DNA from: Circinella minor
Taxonomy: Eukaryota; Mucoromycota; Mucoromycetes; Mucorales; Lichtheimiaceae
Assembly: GCA_016758965.1 (NCBI GenBank)
Contig: JAEPRB010000105.1
Span: 62,001-126,000 of the forward strand
Direction of reading: 5' to 3'
Length of the DNA: 64,000 bases
Part shown: positions 5,882-18,200 of the stretch, piece after piece
How the letters are laid out: the number at the start of each line of letters is the position of its first letter
Numbering within the stretch: position 1 is the stretch's first letter
Made by a program: the position numbers and the translations under genes
The notes under the pieces: model-generated
The model's database searches: none
Told to the model about the DNA's origin: nothing
What the model saw: only the letters and a program-made list of their open reading frames with translations

Positions 5882-5891
5882 CATATTATCT

Positions 5892-6054
5892 GGACGTGGG
5901 TAATTTTGCAGTACTGCAAATGCAGTACTTTTTTGCAGTAGTAGTCGGACAACACTGGAAAATATCCGCACAACTGACCGGATTTACCGAACATTACTAA
6001 CTATAAAAGGTGCTTTGCGGTACTGCTTGCTGTAGTTTGCTGTACTTTGCTGTA
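5892..6054 (+). repeat. Left terminal inverted repeat
   Basis: Matches the reverse complement of 7211-7372 almost base for base over about 150 bp. A tandem of the 10-mer TTTGCTGTAC follows at about 6037-6070. Confidence 0.85.
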
Positions 6055-7210
6055 CTTTGCTGTACTTTGCAATAGTTGTTTGCAGTACGTAATGATTTCT
6101 ATAAAATTATATATTACACTTGTTTTAGTATAGTATTATTGCAGTATTTTTTTAAATAGTTATGGAATTATAAATTTATGAATAATATACATTTAATAAA
6201 TCAAGAACTTAATATTTAATATCAATCTCTTAAATTTTGATCTTTATCAGTTCAGCAAATACATTGTATATTATGAAGTTACTTTTTTGAAAAATACTAT
6301 TCAGCTATATACTAAAAAAAGAAAGTGACACATAACCACTAAAATTTTTAGAAGTAACCCCGCCTTTTTTTTATACTATTGTGATATGCTCACCAGCTTC
6401 AAGGCTCTTATTATTATCAAATTAATTAGCTTTTAGAAAACATACACACAAATATAGATATATTGAATACATCTACTATGTACTTTTATATTAGATGTAG
6501 ACAAAGTATTTTATTAAGCAAAAAGTTTGTTTTCTTCTTATGTTTTTAGAATTCCATTTATTAAAGAGGAAATATTATTATACAACAAAAGGAGAAACAT
6601 GAGAAAAGAAGTCCGGTGTCAATGATCTGATATAATTAATTAAAGTCAAAGGTTCAAATGGCTTAATAGGTAGAGCTTTTGCATAATTCATTGCCTTATT
6701 GAATAGTTAAATAATTGAATCCAGTAAAAAGAAAGGTTTTGCTTCAAGACTTTGATTTTTTTTTTTGGCGCTTCTTTTGTTTTATGCAACTTTATATATT
6801 GAGATTCTTTTTCATCATATATAGCAACATAATTCTTTATTTAATTAATAATGATATTACTAATGTCAGTATTGTACTGTATACTGTTCAATATATGTAT
6901 TTATGGCAATAATATAGCAATTCTAGAACTAATAACTTGTGAATTAAAATGTATCAAAAGATTAATTTAAATATGTTTTAAAACAAATTGGGAACAACAA
7001 AATAATATATATAATGTACTATTTAAAATCAAGCTATTTTAAACCAAGGCGATAGCAAAGAAACACTCAATATAGTTATTATTGCTGGCCAAAAAGGGTT
7101 CAAATATAATAATCGAAAATGACGAGAAACAGTTGATAGAATTTTTTTTTCTTTTTTTCTTTAGCACATATGTAAACTACCGCAAGAATAGTACTGCAAA
7201 AATGATTTAA

Positions 7211-7372
7211 TACTGCAAAGTACTGCAAACTACCGCAAGCAGTACCGCAAAGCACCTTTTATAGTTAGTAATGTTCGGTAAATCCGGTCAGTTGTGCGGA
7301 TATTTTCCAGTGTTGTCCGACTACTACTGCAAAAAAGTACTGCATTTCCAGTACTGCAAAATTAAAGGTACC
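7211..7372 (-). repeat. Right terminal inverted repeat
   Basis: Inverted copy of the left arm. Compared with it, a few T/G and T/A differences occur in the sub-terminal TTTGC(A/T)GTAC units. Confidence 0.85.
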
Positions 7373-7382
7373 CATATTATCT

Positions 7383-8099: not shown

Positions 8100-10026
8100 T
8101 ATAGTAAAATAACAACCAAAAGCAAAATTAATAGTATATACTCATTTGTGTATATACAGAAAAAATATTTACGAATGTCTTTGATTTTTTCAGTATCACC
8201 TTCTTGGGATAAGAAACAAGATCCATTATCAACAATAAAACTGATATCAATAGTCTTCCAAACCTTCTTTGCATACGTCAAAAATTCTATATCTTGATTG
8301 AATGAAGTAGCAACCAGTTCTGCTAGTCGAGTAAGCTTTATATGTTTGTAGATTTTGGAAGAAAAGTCACGCGCGACTAAAGTGGTGATATATAAATGGA
8401 GAGAGGCATTATTTGTTGTCAGTTTACAAAATGTTGTTATTATGGGAAATATAATAATGAAATATTACCTTGTATTTTTCTATCGCGTAATAAGTTAGGA
8501 TATCCTTCTAATGCCTTAATTATATACAGCTTTAATTCTTTTATATACTTTTCAAGAGATGCATTCAGTTCATGATTTATCGCTGGCAAATGAGACATAA
8601 CGGCAAATATGCTTGTTTTCAATGTCTACGTATCATAAATATAATTATTTATAACATCAACTTTCCATTTCCACAAACATTCAAAAATTTTACACATACG
8701 TATACAGTACTCACATTGTAAAATGAAGTATCTAATCGAAATATCAAGTTACTTATTTCTTCGCACTGATCATTGATTAATTGTCGAAATTTTGTGGGTA
8801 ATATTTCCTGGTAAAAGTATACCATGCATTCTTCGATCTAATAAATAGTCGTTGATTTCTTATCAATTTACATATAAGCTACGATATAATGCATTAATAC
8901 GAAGTAATGGTGTCAAAATAACGAAGATTTTACCATATCGAACTTTTTCACTAGGATTAGGTATAAAATGTCGTCACAGTGTCGTTCATACAAACGGGAA
9001 AAATCGACCATCGTATCGTTACTTCTTTGAATGGTCAGAGACTGAGAATTTGTCAATTGTTGTGTGTGAAAGCCACATGCGTTGGAAAGAAATGGTCGTG
9101 TTGGTTGGGCCTGAGCTGTTTCATCTGGTGCTTGGTTTCGAATATGGGATGTCAGTAATAATTCATTATTATCAACGTTCGTTTCGAATATATTTGTATT
9201 ATTTGTGCTCTCAGTGGAAGAGGCCGGTCGAGTCGTTGTTGATAACGAAGAAGATGAAGAGGTAAGAGATAGCACATTTCTAATACTACGTATACAATTT
9301 AAAATAGTAATAAATAAACAGCCGAAGTTAATATCTTTTAAAGTCGAATCCAATTATTATGTTAAAGTGAGAAAGGGAATCCAAACCTGTTATTATAATT
9401 ATTCTCACCATTTCCGTCACCACCAACAAAGTATTTTCCCTGGACGATCTCATCTTTTTTATTGTTCAGTGACAGCACTGATAGGTCATTTTTGTTGTCA
9501 GAAAACAAGTCCATTGTTATTATTTCAGGAGACGTTGAAATAATCGTATCATTATTACTATCATTATCAGATGATGATGGCTGGTAACGTCGGGTGATGT
9601 TGTGATATAGTTGAAAGCCTTTTTTCTTACGAAATTTTGTGCTTACAAAACTGTTGGGAAACTCTTTAATAATAAGTGGTCCGAAACTATTTTTTGCGAC
9701 AGATGATACATTTTTCAAAAGACAACTTGAACAATAACTCTCATATGTTTCAGAAAATATGATCTCGGAACCTTGTAAGGTTTCAAGATTTTGACGGATC
9801 CTAGTTGTAATATAACATTTTTAAGTAAGCAAATAATAATGTATCAACGAAATAATAAGTTTTTTTTATTTGTTAATATATATATATATATTCGCGTCCA
9901 ATTGCTCCAAAGTTAGATATAATAAGAAAAAAAGCAATAGAAAATTTAGATACGTAGACATTACCAGTTACGTGTAAATTCGATATCATTTTCACTTATA
10001 TTGCGTGTTGAACGATGGAAGCTCAT
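7896..10026 (-). CDS. RFX-family winged-helix DNA-binding protein
   Basis: Predicted nuclear transcription factor of the RFX type (family includes yeast Crt1/Rfx1 and fission yeast Sak1). I read seven exons on the minus strand: 10026-9965, 9800-9387, 9279-8934 (or from 9285), 8837-8715, 8625-8469, 8322-8173 and 8044-7896, all in phase, about 466 residues. Residues ~15-90 fit the RFX DNA-binding domain: an opening FTRNWIRQNLE, then SETYESYCSSC, the core SFGPLIIKEFP and KFRKKKGFQLYHNI. These align with the family pattern (W-L-x-x-N, TLYxxYxxxC, SFGKLIRxxFP, TRRLGxRGxSKYHY). The loop and last strand are divergent. A Ser/Asn-rich linker precedes an alpha-helical C-terminal half that may correspond to RFX dimerisation helices. 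One donor (GTTTGG after residue ~158) is non-consensus. The DNA-binding call is fairly firm; targets are unknown. Confidence 0.75.
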
Positions 10027-10798
10027 AATAATGGTCGGATTTGAAGTGAGAAGGAAGGAGGGAAAACAAAGGGAAAGAACGAAAAAAAAAAGAAAAAAAA
10101 ATATTTTTCTTTTTAATATATGCAAGCTTTTTTTTATTAAAGTTGTCAGTAATGGTGCGAATTTTTCTTCTACAAGATATAGACGATCTTGTTATTTGGC
10201 TTCACTATGATAAGCCACGCAATCAGACGAATTCTTCTAATATGAGATTATTTGTGGGACAGAACAACTAGTCTTTTTTGTTAGTATCAGTTCACCGGCA
10301 AAGCAAAGCCTGTTTAAGGCGGAAAGATAAAATAGAACATTGACCACTTCTAGATAAGTTGTCTATAATTAATCTAGCTAGTTTAACAAAAAAAAACAAC
10401 AATAACAACCACTTTTTACGATATAACAATGGCTACACAAAATAATCAATTTAGCAAAGTTATTTGCAATATAACTCGATTTTTTATTTACTATAATAGT
10501 TTTAAGAGTCGTTAACCTTTTTAAGCTATGTTATATTGATGGTGGAGAGATTTTAAGAAATGATTTTCATTTTGCTTGATAACACGATAATGGAATAATC
10601 AGAACATATGAAGATGTGTTTGAGCGAAAGCACAGTGGTGAAAAAACTTACAAATTGGTTTATAATGAGAGTAGATTAGAGTTTTATTATAAGAAAAAAA
10701 TGATCAATGAACGCTTCGTCTAAGTAGGACATATCCGTGTCAGTCTAATTCTGTTAGTGAATAATGAGAGTAAAAGTGCCTGCTTTTGATATTTTTTC
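10027..10798. other. Intergenic stretch between RFX gene and Fanzor relic
   Basis: Contains the promoter side of the RFX gene and AT-rich sequence. I see no open coding block. Confidence 0.45.
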
Positions 10799-11031
10799 AG
10801 CTATAGAGAATGTTTCGAGTTTGCCCTATACGTATGCTAATTGTTATTGATCAGAATACAGTATACTTTGCTTCAACCTATACCAAGCCATCAAGTTTAA
10901 TTGAAAGTTCATATAACGCCGGAAATGTTGATAATTATATATATTTTTTATTGCTGTAGTTAAAACTTCATATGTAAATATATAATGAAAAGTATAGTTG
11001 ACTGCAATGAATTGTGTTTTTTTAGCGTTTC

Positions 11032-13971
11032 ATGCGTCGAATTTTAGAAGAAGATACTATTCTTTGCCGGGATGCGATGAATCTTGAAACGTTACACGTG
11101 CTACGATTTGTTGAAGATCCAGCCAATGTCACTCGCCCTTTATCATTTAACAGATTACAACTTTTTGGAAAACGCTTTCCATTTGGCGATGACACCACCT
11201 GGTGAAAGCTCCTGATCGAGTAAGTTTTGCTTATAGAATTATGGCTTAATTGCCCACATGCCTAACATTAATACGTAACTTATTAACCATATATTGTTTA
11301 GCTGACACCTACCCTGAACTTGATAATATATTTACAAATTACGTTAATCCTTCTCGTGTACAGGATAATGGTCAAGGTAAGCTTTACTTTTGTTTTATGA
11401 ATTACCAAATAGTACGTACATAATTATGTATGTAATGTAATAGGCTCTAATTGAATACTATTAGCTTATTGCGCAGTACTTGTATGAGATCCTGGTTTAC
11501 GATCCAAAGTTAAAAGAAATTTTGCCAAAAAAGCAATGACAAGTAGCTATGTATGTATTATTTAATTTTATCGTTATTCTTGATATTCCATATGTTGTTC
11601 TGTTACGTAAACAGAAATCTAACTCTTTTCATTCATTGTCATTTATAATAGATACCCGTACTAATCACTTGCTTATGAACATTCCTACCTTTTTGAAAAG
11701 AGTGTGGCTATCTTATATTAATGGATTGGTTACAGAGCTTAATATAAACTTACGACAATTACCTAATACTTTGGTTAATGTATCAAATCATACTTAGCTA
11801 TTATAATTTATGATTACTGTTTACATTGGTAATATTGATATAATAACTTACTGTTTTTCTTTTTTTAAACTAACTGCAAATAATATACACAAGCAGGTTG
11901 TGGATCGATTTGATCATCTCCCAGGCAATATTATTTCTAAGTTTCTATCTGCCATAATAAATAGAGTAAATGATTATTACGTGTAAATGTCAGCTTTTTT
12001 TATTACCTAATGCTTTTTACGTACTGTTTGATATATTTCATTTTATTGTTCATGTACTAAAATGTTTATATTTCGTTATTTATTTAAACTTTGATTAAAT
12101 ACGGTTTTAGAGCGGTTGCTACAGTCTTCTAAAAAAGTTGCACTACATCCTCGTGGTCAAGATTTGACAGGATGGCAAGGTGGAATGTATCATCTCTCCA
12201 AAAATCCTCGTCAGGGATTAACTCCACAACGTGACGCTGACTCTCGTTTCGTATTTATCGATCGAAATAATAAAAATGTGTTTATTGTTACATTGCTATT
12301 AATTGTGCTTTACCAAAAAGCAAATGTGTATACCTACTAATACTTGAAAAACTATCTATATTTGTAAAACAAATAGGGATTCGTTCGTTAGTCACTGTTG
12401 TGGACACACTCGATGCGCTGGAAAAAGATGAACATCGTAGACAGCACACAATTAATCTGCATAACGGACAGTATCAGTATGTATTATTTTTATATAGCAA
12501 TTTCAGTAGCTAAAACATTAATTCATTATAATTGGCATACATTAATTATAATATGAATATTTATCATATAATAGAGTGAAGTCTTTATTCAAGTGGTCTC
12601 AATACAGACAGCTTTAAAAACCGACGTCGATACGTCGCTGGAGAAGCATTAGGTGGTCGAGATGCCACCAATTTACATTTGCTTTACCATATAATGGGAT
12701 TTGTACCATCAACAGTGACTACATCTGTAAATTTTATATTATACATTCGTATGATAGATGAATTTCATACAGAGTGAGTAATTGTTTTTTTTTTAAAAAA
12801 AAAAAATCAAAGTCTATATTGCACGCAGCACTTCATAATAGCTAACATTCTTCAATATAGGATATATGAAAACTTTAATTTTCAATACCGCCACGGTGAG
12901 ATGCGTATGCGATATTTCGGAGCACATCATAGTGCCTTGGAAACGTTAGACAGTTTGCTAATTGGTGTGAATGAACACAATGACGTATATATATATCCAC
13001 TTGTATTATTATTAAATTCATTGGTATAAATTGGTGTACGTATTAAATTTTATTTTACAGGGATAACTTCCGCACCTTTTTCAGGTGTTCAAAAAAAGAA
13101 CGTAAAAATCATCGACGAGCAGTTCATCGAGAACGACGAAGACAACCTGGATATGTTACCACCCGTACCTACCATTGTTGTTTATGATGATGTCGGCTTA
13201 GACAAAGTATGAGAGGCTACGAACCTACTCTAATGGAAGTATATGACCATTTATCAACATTAAAGCATCATAGATCATTCAAATTCAAGATTTTAATAAA
13301 TTTTTAAACACTTTTTTCTTTATTATTATAGACATTTCGAGGAGTGTTGGTATGTCGGGTATTGGTTATACTAACTAACGAGTCTTATACAAGTATCATG
13401 TGTTCTGCATACCATAATGGTACTGTATCTTAGTTCATCAAAGTCGGGGCGACCCAGATAGAGATATGTGGATATGTATAAATAATCATCGGTAAGATAA
13501 ATCATTAATTACCTTTCTTTTTATTCATGTGAGAAACTAACTTTATTTTTTTTTAAAATTAGAATACAAAAAATAAGAAGAACTACTGGGAATAACAGAA
13601 AGAAAAGAAAGATGCTTTAGTGCTGCGATGAAGAAAATAATCCATCCACACGTACATCATAATGTCCTGATCGCATGCGTGTTGGTTTGTATCGCTTCCA
13701 ACTTGATAATTTTTAAAAAAAATGACGTTACTATTGAATATTTTAAAAACTATATTTTAATAATAATATATATATAACTAGTTATAGGCGCACTGTATAT
13801 TATCCATATCTCTGGTGTCGACATTGTGAGCGAGAAATTGACGAGAATGGTAAAAATGTATTAGGTCGTGTGATATATCGGGATCTAAACGCTGCAAACA
13901 ACATTGGACGAGTGTTTACTGCCTATATCAACAGCAATGGTGATCCTAATTCGAGACCATTGTGCCCTTGA
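11032..13971 (+). pseudogene. Decayed Fanzor (eukaryotic TnpB-like OMEGA nuclease) gene
   Basis: Plus-strand coding blocks separated by possible introns spell out a Fanzor in order. An upstream block of uncertain kinship (MRRILEEDTILCRDAMNLET) starts at 11032. Near 12110-12270 an exon ends in DADSRFVFID. Near 12375-12480 comes GIRSLVTVVDTLDALEK, fitting RuvC-I. Helical blocks follow at 12615-12985 (FNFQYRHGEMRMRYFGAHHS). At 13140-13205 is PTIVVYDDVGLDK, then RGYEPTLMEVYDHLS in another frame. At 13365-13420 is ILTNESYTSIMCSAYHNG, the NEYxTSxxCxxCH zinc-ribbon block with one Cys altered. At 13813-13827 is WCRHC, and at ~13879-13908 RDLNAANNIG, the RuvC-III D-x-NAA-x-NI block. Frame breaks (for example just after DVGLDK at ~13208), in-frame stops and the lost Cys point to a dead copy. 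Fanzors are RNA-guided DNA nucleases derived from TnpB and often ride in eukaryotic transposons. Confidence 0.75.
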
Positions 13972-15247
13972 CATCCTGCTAATAGAAACCAACATATTCG
14001 TGCACAAATGTAAAAAGAAGAACTTGTTCGAGAAGAAATAGCGAATGAGGAAGAAGAAATATGAGAATGATTACATGAAGGAAAGGGGGCACAAGGTGGC
14101 GTACATATAATAGCCATAAAAGAAACCTAAAACTGTCAATAAAGATGTGCTGGCATTCATGTATTTTACTTGTATCTTTTGTTTCTGATTAACATGATAT
14201 TTCATGCTGTGCACTGATTTCTGTTTTTTTCTTACGTGAATTATAGGTATTTTTTTATGACGTAAATATTTGTGATAAATAAAGTACATCGAAGGTTATT
14301 GTTTTAAGTAATTCATTGAATCATTTCATTGGTTGGGTGTATTAATGGAAAAAGAATAGGCTGTTTTTAAGACCCCGTTCTTGTTTGCTTTGATTAGAAA
14401 CAGCGACTTTTGTTTTTGGGAATTTTTTTTTTTTGTTCGAAAGGGGACTGACTGATCGTCTCGTTTCCATGGAAGTATATAATCTACGGAAACTACTAAT
14501 TCTACCAAATCTATGGAGTAGCAAAATATTATTTGTCGATCACTCTTATTTTTTTTTTTTGAGAAGCGCTTTTAAAGTATGACAAAAAACAAAGTACAAA
14601 AATCTTCCCATATACACTTTTTTATACTGGCACAATAGGTCAAAATGAAAATCTGACACCTAAATACAACAATGGACCAGATCTAATCAGATTGACTTTC
14701 AAAAAAATAAAAGATTGAGTTCAGAAAAAAGAGTAGTTTCACACGCTCCGAATATGGGCAATTGATGTTGGTTAAAAAGTATTTATTTGTATTTTTATTA
14801 CCTGGGAAAATTTATGCTTAGATGATATAAAAATTGCTTATAGTTACTAGCTTTCTATCAAATTTGATGAAATATCTACTATATACCTATATCTAATAAA
14901 CAAACATAATTAAAATAAAATATAAAAAAATTCTTCAATCTCGCTAGAGAATAGACGTATTCGCATACTTTTTTTTTTGTTTCTTCTACTTTCTTCTGAA
15001 CAGAAAGAAAAAAAAGAACCTTACTGCCAAGTGTAAACGAATTAGCTGCAACTGAGTAATTGTTGTGGCTGTTTATAGCTGGGTTATATTTTTTTTTTTA
15101 TTGAGCGGCGGCTCTACCGGAAAAAAAAATAGAATAGTTTCTTTTTTGTTGAGCTGTGATATTATTTATTTATTTATTTCTTCTCTTTCTCTTTTCTTTT
15201 TTCGGTCTTTTCTCTAACAATACTATACCCTGTTATTTAAAGCATTC
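13972..15247. other. Intergenic stretch, permease promoter region
   Basis: AT-rich with A/T runs, then pyrimidine-rich tracts close to the permease start (15180-15215), as is common before fungal start codons. No gene or clear transposon end seen. Confidence 0.5.
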
Positions 15248-18200
15248 ATGTCCGAGAAAATAACTCACCTTGAAGAAGGTACAAAGGCTTCATATTATAA
15301 TGAAGCCGGCGCTCATGGCAGTGAGAAACATGAAGAAGAATTGTACGATCCAACATGCATGTCACAGCACAGCGTCGACCGGGATAGCACACTCCAAGGA
15401 ACAAAGCGAGGTTTGAGTGCACGTCATATTCAAATGATTTCGTTAGGTGGCTGTATTGGGTAAATATTAACAGCATTTATTAAATGATTTGAAACAATAA
15501 CAACAAATTATAGCAAATTATATAATTTATATGTATTAATTGATCGATCAAAAAATTTACTGATGTGCGACGAATTAAAATAATAACAATTTAATAGTAC
15601 TGGTCTCTTTTTGACTTCTGGTCAAAATATCGCTAATGTAAATAAATAGAAAAAAAAAAGACGAACGAAAGACAAATATGAAAAAAAAAATACTATTAAG
15701 AATACAACTAATCGAGATAAATATAATTTGTTAATTATAGGGTGGTCCAGCTGGTGCCTTGATTGGTTATTGTGTTGTTGGCATTATGGTAAAAAAGAAC
15801 AACATAGTTTCTTTTCCAAAAAAAAAACATGAATGTAACATTTGAAAACTAAATTTATATGATGATAATATAATAGGTTTATTGTGTTATGACTTGTTTG
15901 GGAGAAATGGCTACATTTATGCCAGGTAAATTTATTATCATAAACTTTTATTTTACACAGTGAAATTATATTTAATATTTTGAGTAAACATTAACTAAAA
16001 CTACCATTTTTTTTTTCAATTTACAATAACTAAACAAATAGTATCTGGTTCTTTCAACCATTACGCAACTAGATTCATTGACCCAGCTTTAGGTTTCGCT
16101 CTTGGTTGGAATTATTGGTAATTTAATGTTTTTTAATGGAATTCTTTCCTTTTTTAGTTGCATTCTCTGTCCCACACACACTAACACATTATCTATTTGT
16201 TTTATCTTTTTACTATCAATAGGTTTTCGGTAAGTGTTTTTTGTAAACAATATGCACAGAAATTATGCACGTGGAATATACATACATATTATATTATTTT
16301 CTTGAAATGGTAAAATCAGGGACTCATTAATTTTTATCTTTTTTTTTTTTCAATTATTTTGATATACGATCTAGTGGGTAAGTAATATATGAGATGAACG
16401 GAAATTTTTATTTTTATCTTGGCTGTAATATATTACTAACTTATTCATTTATTACCATTCTGAATATATAATTTAGGCTGTACTTATTGCTACTGGTAAT
16501 TATTTTTTTCATATTTTATTTCAACAATCAAAAGCAATTGTATATCATATTTTATACAATGTAGAGAATATTTTAATAAATAACTTTTTGCTATTGCCCT
16601 TTTTTTTCTCATTGTAATATAGAACTTTCTGCAGCAGCAACAATTATTAACTGGTGGAAACCGGTCATGCCTGATGCTGCATGGTCAGCCATTTTCTTGG
16701 TTCTTATCGTTTCTATTAACTTGGTCGGAGTTCGGTAAGTAATATCTCTTTCTCAGGGAGTTAAAAGAACCGTGCGAAATCGATATATCGCGAAAGCCAA
16801 AGTAATGGATTACGGCAGAAAAAAGTCTAACGTGTGTTGTGGATTATATTTATTAGATTATATGGTGAACTTGAGTACTGGTTTGCTCTCGTCAAGATTC
16901 TTATTGTGATTGTATTTATTATTGTTGGTAAGTTATAGAAGAGGACATAGAGGTTACTTTTTTTTTTTTTGGGAAGGGGTTGTGATAATAGGAATAACAG
17001 ATTAAATATTGTTTTTAAAAAACTAATTGATTTATTTATATGATGTGTATATAATTATTTAGCCATTTGTGTATCAGCTGGTCTTGGCGGTGAAGTTATT
17101 GGATTTAAATATTGGACAGATCCTGGTGCCTTTGTTGGTGGTGGTGTAGGTACTGTTAGTGTCTTACTTACTGCTGGTTTCTCTTTCCAAGGCACAGAAA
17201 TTGGTAAGTCATATATTATATTTATATTCTTTTAAAAAGAATAAATACGTAGTAAGTATATAAGAATTGTTCATAATAATCCATTACGCTTTATAACAAA
17301 AAAATAGTTGGTATCACTGCTGGTGAAGCAAAGAACCCAACGAAAACTGTCCCACGAGCAATCCGTAACACATTTTGGCGTATCCTCTTTTTCTATATTG
17401 TCACCATTTTCTTGCTCGGTCTTACTTTACCAAGCAACAATCCTAAATTGTTGAACACTGATGATAGTGCAGGAACAGCTTCTTTTACTCTTGTTTTTGA
17501 AAAAGGTGGTATTGATGCAGGTGCTCATGTTATTAATGCCATTATTCTTACAAGGTAATAAAAAAAGATATCAATAATAATGCAAGATAAAATAACTGCA
17601 TAACACTACGATAAATAATATAAACTGATTATAATATAATCATTCTTTTATATAATAGTGTCTTGTCAGCTGCCAATTCTGGATTATATACATGTTCACG
17701 TACATTGTTAGGTCTTGGTCATGATGGTAATGCTCCAAGCTTCCTTTCACGTACTAACCGTTATGGTTCTCCCTACTGGTAAGTCTTGGATATTCTGCTA
17801 GTAGTTTATATGTAATTTAGTAGAAAAGAACCAAGCAGAGAATAACTTATGGTTTATTGTTTTTTTTAGGGCTGTCTTATTTTCTTCTGTAATTGGTTTC
17901 GCATGTGTATTTGTATCCATCTACAGTGCTTCAACAGCCTTTAATTGGTTTTTGAGTATTACATCCGTAACTGGTTTTATCAGTTGGTGGGGTATTGCAT
18001 TTGTCCAAATTCGTTTCAGACGTGGATACGTAAAGCAAGGCCGTAGTCTTGATGATCTTCCTTACAGAGCTTTCCTTTATCCCATCTCACCCATATTTGC
18101 ATGTGTATTATGTATCTTGATTATTTTGGGGCAAGGATATGGTGCATTCACACCTGAATGGGACACTGAATTATTCTTCACTAATTATGTTGGTATTGCA

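Follow-up and report, generated by a model that had tools for sequence, protein, structure and literature searches.

What is left of the gene-like blocks at positions 11032 to 13971 of a 64,000-nucleotide stretch from the mould Circinella minor (Mucorales, Lichtheimiaceae), and what kind of element once carried them? The stretch, hereafter the window, is part of contig C105 in an assembly of 46.6 Mb, whose other contigs are named in the same way. An earlier note, made from the letters alone, had read the blocks as the relic of a Fanzor, a eukaryotic RNA-guided TnpB-like nuclease. Our analysis agrees on the identity and places the gene within a larger element: with a probability of roughly 0.92, window 10916-14286 (+ strand) is a dead copy of a C. 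minor DNA transposon that carries Fanzor1. Fanzor1 elements in Mucorales were already described in 2013, and the window copy is an ordinary one, a fossil.

Ordered nuclease motifs and a family of copies

All of the blocks named in the earlier note are present at the proposed place, on the + strand and in the order RuvC-I Asp, Glu before the zinc Cys, CRHC, and RDLNAANNI. FVFID occupies 12248-12262, GIRSLVTVVDT starts at 12376, NESYTSIMCSAYH lies within 13332-13430, and WCRHC and RDLNAANNI lie within 13786-13971. These blocks are far beyond chance. Searches of the genome with window exons match other loci at very low expectation values (E). The best E at another locus is 1.4e-16 for the RuvC-I exons, 9.6e-31 for the last exon, and 3.1e-29 for the middle exons, whose query held the stretch ~13070-13150 in a frame later judged noncoding, as did the queries of one protein search and of the 21.2-bit Pfam scan reported below.

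Including the window itself, these searches returned 12 matches for the RuvC-I exons, 14 for the last exon, and 11 for the middle exons, and copy identity within the family ranges from ~76 to 99%. Subfamily 1 comprises 11 contig places (C105, which is the window copy, C558, C153, C8, C26, C102, C45, C4, C3, C33, and C21), and there are up to six more distant places (C407, C335, C44, C147, C1, and C18), among which C407 and C147 may be one place, sharing a 186-base overlap at 99.5%. As insertions are split between contigs, there may be fewer of them than there are contig places. In blastn comparisons within the genome, the relic matches subfamily-1 DNA from 10916 to 14287 at 76-85% identity, with a single exception, 198 bases that are inverted and 73% identical; similarity begins at 10916 against the C153 copy and at 10999 against the C8 copy. 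The relic proposed at 11032 to 13971 is therefore real but too short as proposed, since it runs from 10916 to ~14286.

Published marks of Fanzor proteins include a DPG in RuvC-I and a Glu six residues before the first zinc Cys (PMC10711439), and the family pattern has been written D-X(125,275)-[TS][TS]-X-X-[zinc finger]-X(5,50)-RD, with a C4 zinc finger followed by RD (PMC3627910). On the window exons, joined by hand, ~220 residues separate the RuvC-I Asp from the Glu, 6 separate the Glu from the first Cys, and 18 separate the last Cys from the catalytic Asp. The Glu sits in NESYTSIMC, with TS two residues before the Cys, and the earlier proposal that the Glu of NESYTS is the shifted RuvC-II residue fits this distance of exactly six. 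At the canonical RuvC-II place there is no Glu, only GDG in sister copies and DDV in the window, whereas the alternative Glu is present in 9 of the 12 copies read; the other three comprise one with a stop exactly there and two deletion derivatives that lack the codon. Motif order and spacing thus support a Fanzor1-type identity for the window gene, and the spacings fall within the published pattern although the zinc finger holds three of the four Cys expected of a C4 ribbon (CSAY, CRHC).

The window copy departs from its family at two of these motifs. Its RuvC-I Asp stands where the earlier note had put it, but the exon reads FVFIDRNN, whereas in sister copies PG and a splice donor come after ID or FD, and the donor is absent here; DPG occurs in six of the eight copies read, all but the window and C18, so that the family bears this mark and the window copy, with DRN, does not. 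In the first zinc knuckle, the window has CSAY versus CSVC, the second Cys having become Tyr, and each of the 7 further subfamily-1 copies that were read has CxxC in its first knuckle. In subfamily 2, the four copies read (C335, C44, C147, and C1) all have Asp or Asn at the position of this second Cys (CSYD twice, CSYN, and YSYD; [CY]SY[DN]), which may reflect a variant zinc site instead of decay.

Ends, target duplications, and interiors of the transposon

The family has exact ends. Four loci (C102, C153, C45, and C3) share the 5' end [C/T]GAACKACCTTAAACAYCAAAARGAATTAAGTCACATCC, and 10 of the 12 3' ends read terminate in TAAATAAAGAACY, the window and C8 carrying variants; in short form, the end motifs are GAACK...AATAAAGAACY. 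Terminal inverted repeats are absent, in that the family 3' end does not repeat the 5' ends of these four loci in inverted orientation. Long inverted repeats, suggested as standard ends by the C26 copy, were rejected when a single 5' end was found at the four other loci. An extra inverted copy of the element's own 3' end does occur at the 5' side in one copy of each subfamily, C26 (L018 690-839, 5794-5939) and C335 (L021 4106-4455, 6419-6695).

Genome-wide, the 5' motif has 19 occurrences at ≤3 mismatches (reversed control, 0), and the 3' motif followed by CCA has 14 (reversed control, 1). Ten of these 14 are known copies, one on C405 shares ~23 terminal bases, and three share only ~15. These three places, C40:8866, C135:90781, and C4:334096, terminate in the 14-base 3' motif with CCA, otherwise have little in common with the Fanzor element in the 161 bases read, and possibly belong to other element families with the same end. 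In the subfamily-2 copies C44, C147, and C1, the 3' motif is the same or nearly so, AATAWAGAACC.

Target duplications were sought by comparing nine 5' flanks with seventeen 3' flanks in register, 153 pairs over 11 positions. Four of the 153 agree at 9 or more of the 11 positions; column shuffles yielded 0.31 such pairs on average and reached four in 2 of 5000. The matching pairs are C3 with itself (11), C203 with C264 (11), C153 with C102 (10), and C102 with C166 (9), and all four duplications, 9-11 bp long, start with CCA. On the 3' side this CCA is partly selected, as 4 of the 17 flanks were found with a pattern demanding it. The 5' side was not selected and reads CCA in C102, C153, C203, and C3, TCA in C45, and other letters in C89, C100, C250, and C207; the 5' flanks of C45 and of these last four have no matching 3' partner. 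CCA may lie inside the duplication, or it may belong to the element's 3' end and abut a CCA required in the target, in which case the duplication would be 6-8 bp.

Three of the four matched pairs link different contigs, and the 3' ends of C102, C45, C166, C159, and C264 are 98-100% alike. Such cross-contig pairs fit young, near-identical copies that broke the assembly, or recombination between copies, and they suggest young copies interrupted by contig ends; the full element is estimated at ~8 kb. At C102:33643-37037 (L050), the 5' flank matches the C166 3' flank and the 3' flank matches the C153 5' flank; contig C102 may be chimeric there, or two insertions may have recombined. The family is carried by a eukaryotic transposable element, and the window copy, being without its 5' end, has no duplication pair of its own. 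Helitron-type insertion is expected to leave no target duplications, and it was set aside since duplications are present. A Helitron2 group with duplications has been reported (PMC3627910).

Between the ends, the interiors vary. In the nine of 19 5' ends that were read, sequence beyond the first ~55 bases is of four kinds (C102/C153/C203, C45/C3, C100/C250/C207, and C89). C45 and C3 are 1.36-kb derivatives that have 51 bp at the 5' side and 0.96 kb at the 3' side in common with the longer copies. The 5' half of the C153 copy encodes a Myb-like domain (PF13921; 29.6 bits in one exon and 33.6 with exons joined, cut-off 22.9), and the gene, at L063 5290-5998, is also present in the C102 and C26 copies. 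Elsewhere in the window, at 5890-7377, lies a 1.5-kb element that has a 95% identical copy on C298. Its 154-bp ends (5901-6054, 7211-7364) match inverted ends of the C298 copy, which is itself located just within another Fanzor element, at the 5' end.

Profile and protein searches

The Pfam family PF07282 (TnpB/Cas12f zinc ribbon), which, to judge in part from PMC3627910, spans TnpB and Cas12f besides Fanzor, was the best Pfam match wherever it scored, in line with the proposed Fanzor identity. For the joined C-terminal window exons, the last exon among them, it is the only Pfam match, at 21.2 bits (E 3.2e-4), below its cut-off of 26.3 bits; the C102 and C26 copies score 20.5 and 19.9 bits, and the Circinella umbellata relative P0001 rises above the cut-off with 30.6 bits. 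The profile check called for by the earlier note thus fell short of the threshold in the window and passed it in this relative. NCBIfam TnpB models gave 11.3-11.7 bits versus a cut-off of 100. Protein searches, two of which scored only the ~8000 candidates sharing most words, found relatives only in Circinella and Zychaea, plus three short proteins; P0002, P0004, and P0005 are annotated proteins of C. minor INT45. The same genome also holds other Fanzor-like families, with PF07282 at 42.6 bits in C441:906-1112 and at 24.5 bits, below the cut-off, in C102:39930-40151; the C441 last exon weakly matches TnpB-like solved structures.

The breadth of PF07282 would equally accommodate a bacterial-type TnpB, or the Fanzor2 of an IS607-type element, recently acquired and now decaying. 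We give this alternative only a slim chance: the many introns, the Glu six residues before the zinc Cys, and the DPG of sister copies fit a eukaryotic Fanzor (for Glu and DPG, PMC10711439), the TnpB models score far under their cut-off, the 17 reading frames of the 5' half include no recombinase, and the relatives are those just listed.

Damage to the window copy and selection on the family

With the C153 relative as model, the window copy is missing the first coding exon, nearly all of the second, and everything upstream, and ~0.8 kb is absent at 12020-12022. The frameshift that the earlier note placed near 13208 exists but is not the sole one: within 13060-13212 the family frame is left and then regained, which takes at least two frameshifts, and the frame changes again inside the exon at 12576-12774. 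The stops and the lost zinc Cys of that note are likewise there, the stops in frame within 11464-11547 and 13570-13690 and the Cys as CSAY. With exons and 0.8 kb missing, frame changes, and stops, the window copy in its present form cannot yield the complete protein. These defects, in a mucoralean host, bear out the description of a dying copy, which is now most likely inactive. The parts of the relic are collected in Table 1.

Table 1. Parts of the relic in the window (positions in the window).
Feature	Position	Strand	Evidence
Whole relic, similar to other Fanzor-element copies, 5'-truncated, 3' end kept	10916..14286	+	blastn to sister loci
N-terminal coding remnant 1 (FMRRILEEDTILCRDAMNLETLHVL...), frame lost near end	11029..11209	+	tblastn P0002, 79% over 38 aa
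N-terminal coding remnant 2 (TYPELDNIFTNYVNPSRVQDNG)	11307..11378	+	tblastn P0002 and P0001
N-terminal coding remnant 3, one in-frame stop	11464..11547	+	tblastn P0002, 64% identity
Coding remnant 4 (NHLLMNIPTFLKRVWLSYINGLVTELNINLRQ)	11651..11797	+	90% identity to C153 copy
Open stretch KQVVDRFDHLPGN..., alike in other copies, intronic in annotated model P0002, exon status uncertain	11891..11983	+	
RuvC-I Asp exon (SRFVFID); DRN vs DPG in sister copies; donor site absent	12110..12265	+	
Exon GIRSLVTVVDT..., after RuvC-I	12376..12477	+	
Exon VKSLFKWSQYRQ...NRRRYVAGEAL...IDEFHTE, internal frame change	12576..12774	+	single frame in C8 copy
Exon RIYENFNFQYRHGEMRMRYFGAHHSALETL...	12865..12990	+	
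Exons KKERKNHRRAVHRERRRQPGYV / PTIVVYDDV / MRGYEPTLMEV; without canonical RuvC-II Glu; frame left and regained	13061..13284	+	
Exon with alternative RuvC-II Glu (NESYTS), 6 residues before first zinc Cys; first-knuckle second Cys is Tyr	13332..13492	+	
Exon RRTTGNNRKKRKML..CPDRMRVG, in-frame stops	13570..13690	+	tblastn P0001
Last exon, with second zinc knuckle (WCRHC), RuvC-III (RDLNAANNI), and C-terminal tail as far as the stop	13786..13971	+	
Element 3' noncoding end, terminus TAAATAAAGTAC (family GATAAATAAAGAACY); candidate guide-RNA place	13972..14286	+	

The ratio of nonsynonymous to synonymous substitution rates (dN/dS), obtained by counting over alignable exon blocks and pooled, is 0.35 over 863 codon pairs for the window versus subfamily 1, 0.36 over 801 within subfamily 1 when the window is left out, 0.21 over 105 within subfamily 2, and 0.23 over 1044 between subfamilies, where synonymous sites are near saturation. 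Because these pooled values lie at 0.2-0.4, the substitution pattern indicates that the family protein has been under purifying selection for most of its history.

Pooled dN/dS below 1, together with the many exons of the window copy that remain open, is also what a working or domesticated host gene might display, its stops and frame changes being sequencing errors or unusual splicing. That explanation is highly improbable, as it would have to absorb several independent defects in one copy (first exons, 0.8 kb, DPG and donor, Cys, frames, and stops), and other copies are broken at differing sites. The intact sister copies anticipated by the earlier note could not be shown, as all exon pieces occur together in none of the copies read, but young, contig-split copies are suggested.

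Evidence that weighs against the reading

A number of results count against a Fanzor-carrying transposon under past selection. Among the profile searches, the window RuvC-I exons alone and the last exon alone gave no match to PF07282, a subfamily-2 piece (C147) reached only 12.2 bits with it, and it was not found in P0003, a gene model without zinc knuckles, or in P0002 and P0005, both of which stop before the ribbon. Sequence searches of the PDB gave no solved Fanzor, with no match for P0001 and chance matches only for a five-row profile and a C102 piece. An hhalign comparison with a second Fanzor-like protein from this genome reached 7% probability and is not used as support; its sole aligned stretch is the start of the Glu/zinc-ribbon region. 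The AlphaFold model of P0003, built on four rows, was unusable (mean predicted local distance difference test score 34.6).

As for the element, none of the 17 reading frames of at least 55 amino acids in the 5' half, all of which were scanned, yielded a transposase or recombinase, the Myb-like match being the only one above cut-off. The conserved, guide-like structured RNA that the earlier note proposed to look for in the 3' flank could not be shown at the 3' end: folding gave no significant structure (z -0.99), a consensus fold of the 3' end had 0 covarying pairs of 36, and Rfam had no match within window 10000-16000. On selection, the dN/dS blocks were picked for alignability and single pairs vary, the window versus C8 giving 0.93 on 127 codons. 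An alignment of the element's 3' third shows introns at least as well conserved as exons, as is expected for copies that have since decayed.

The weak profile comparison and the want of a match to solved structures might point to an unrelated zinc-ribbon gene family with a coincidental likeness to RuvC, but this is no more probable than a host gene, given the order and spacing of D, E, Cys, and RD, their repeated conservation across copies and two subfamilies, the first rank of PF07282 wherever it scored, and residence in a mobile element.

A possible role for the nuclease

For the Fanzor1 transposon that we favor, a mechanism can be sketched. By analogy with Fanzor biochemistry (PMC10432273, PMC11423790), the living protein would be an RNA-guided RuvC nuclease. 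Its guide RNA would be transcribed from the element's 3' end into the flank; the 3' end is kept in longer and short copies alike. The nuclease would cut empty target sites, whereupon the element would be copied back, and a separate transposase would move the element.

From the four duplications, we hypothesize that CCA could serve as a target-adjacent motif. A wider proposal, which we regard as rather unlikely, is that of a modular transposon system with fixed ends (~55 bp at the 5' side and ~14 bp at the 3' side) and exchanged interiors, in which CCA, directly after the 3' end GAACY, would be the target-adjacent motif of the Fanzor and the Myb-like protein the end-binding partner of a trans-acting transposase. 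If it were true, cutting at CCA-flanked empty sites would explain the target preference and also the spread of short, gene-broken copies that keep the 3' end (ghost-like loci) and would be served in trans. The CCA-starting duplications and the short copies lead to testable predictions on guide and target motif. The Circinella family, from a mould, has exact ends, insertions that look recent, and a candidate target motif, and it offers a checkable case for the open question of what a Fanzor does for its transposon.

Comparison with known systems

The nearest described case is the Fanzor1 element MCi-2 of Mucor circinelloides (Bao and Jurka 2013, PMC3627910). It has in common with the Circinella family a mucoralean host, a Fanzor1 cargo, the lack of both recognizable terminal inverted repeats and a complete transposase, ~10-bp duplications in which a fixed start precedes free positions, and several subfamilies that share sequence at an end. 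The duplications themselves differ, being 11-12 bp with the pattern ATAATTNNNN(N) in MCi-2 and 9-11 bp starting with CCA in Circinella, where the MCi-2 pattern is not seen. MCi-2A has a partial Crypton transposase (PMC3627910), whereas the 5' half of the Circinella element has the Myb-like gene, and copy identity is 99% over 6 kb in MCi-2 as against ~76 to 99% in Circinella.

The MuDr-like Fanzor1 elements ROr-4, PBl-3, and MCi-4 of Mucoromycota have the same host group, Fanzor1 cargo, and duplications of similar length (9 bp), with no MuDR transposase (PMC3627910); unlike the Circinella family, which has none at its two standard ends, they carry MuDR-like terminal inverted repeats. Like the window gene, TnpB and Cas12f (PF07282) have their zinc ribbon after the RuvC Glu and before the last RuvC Asp. 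TnpB, however, typically has a D-hydrophobic-G motif, and its Glu lies ~50 residues upstream of the zinc finger (PMC10711439), as against six residues in the window gene.

Spu-1 of Spizellomyces punctatus, the element of SpuFz1, differs from the Circinella family by its inverted repeats, its TA duplications, and its one open reading frame (PMC3627910). The guide RNA and cleavage of SpuFz1 have been shown experimentally (PMC10432273), whereas in the Circinella family both are predicted. The two systems come close in their short derivatives, those on C45 and C3 being much like the ghost loci of Spizellomyces (PMC10432273).

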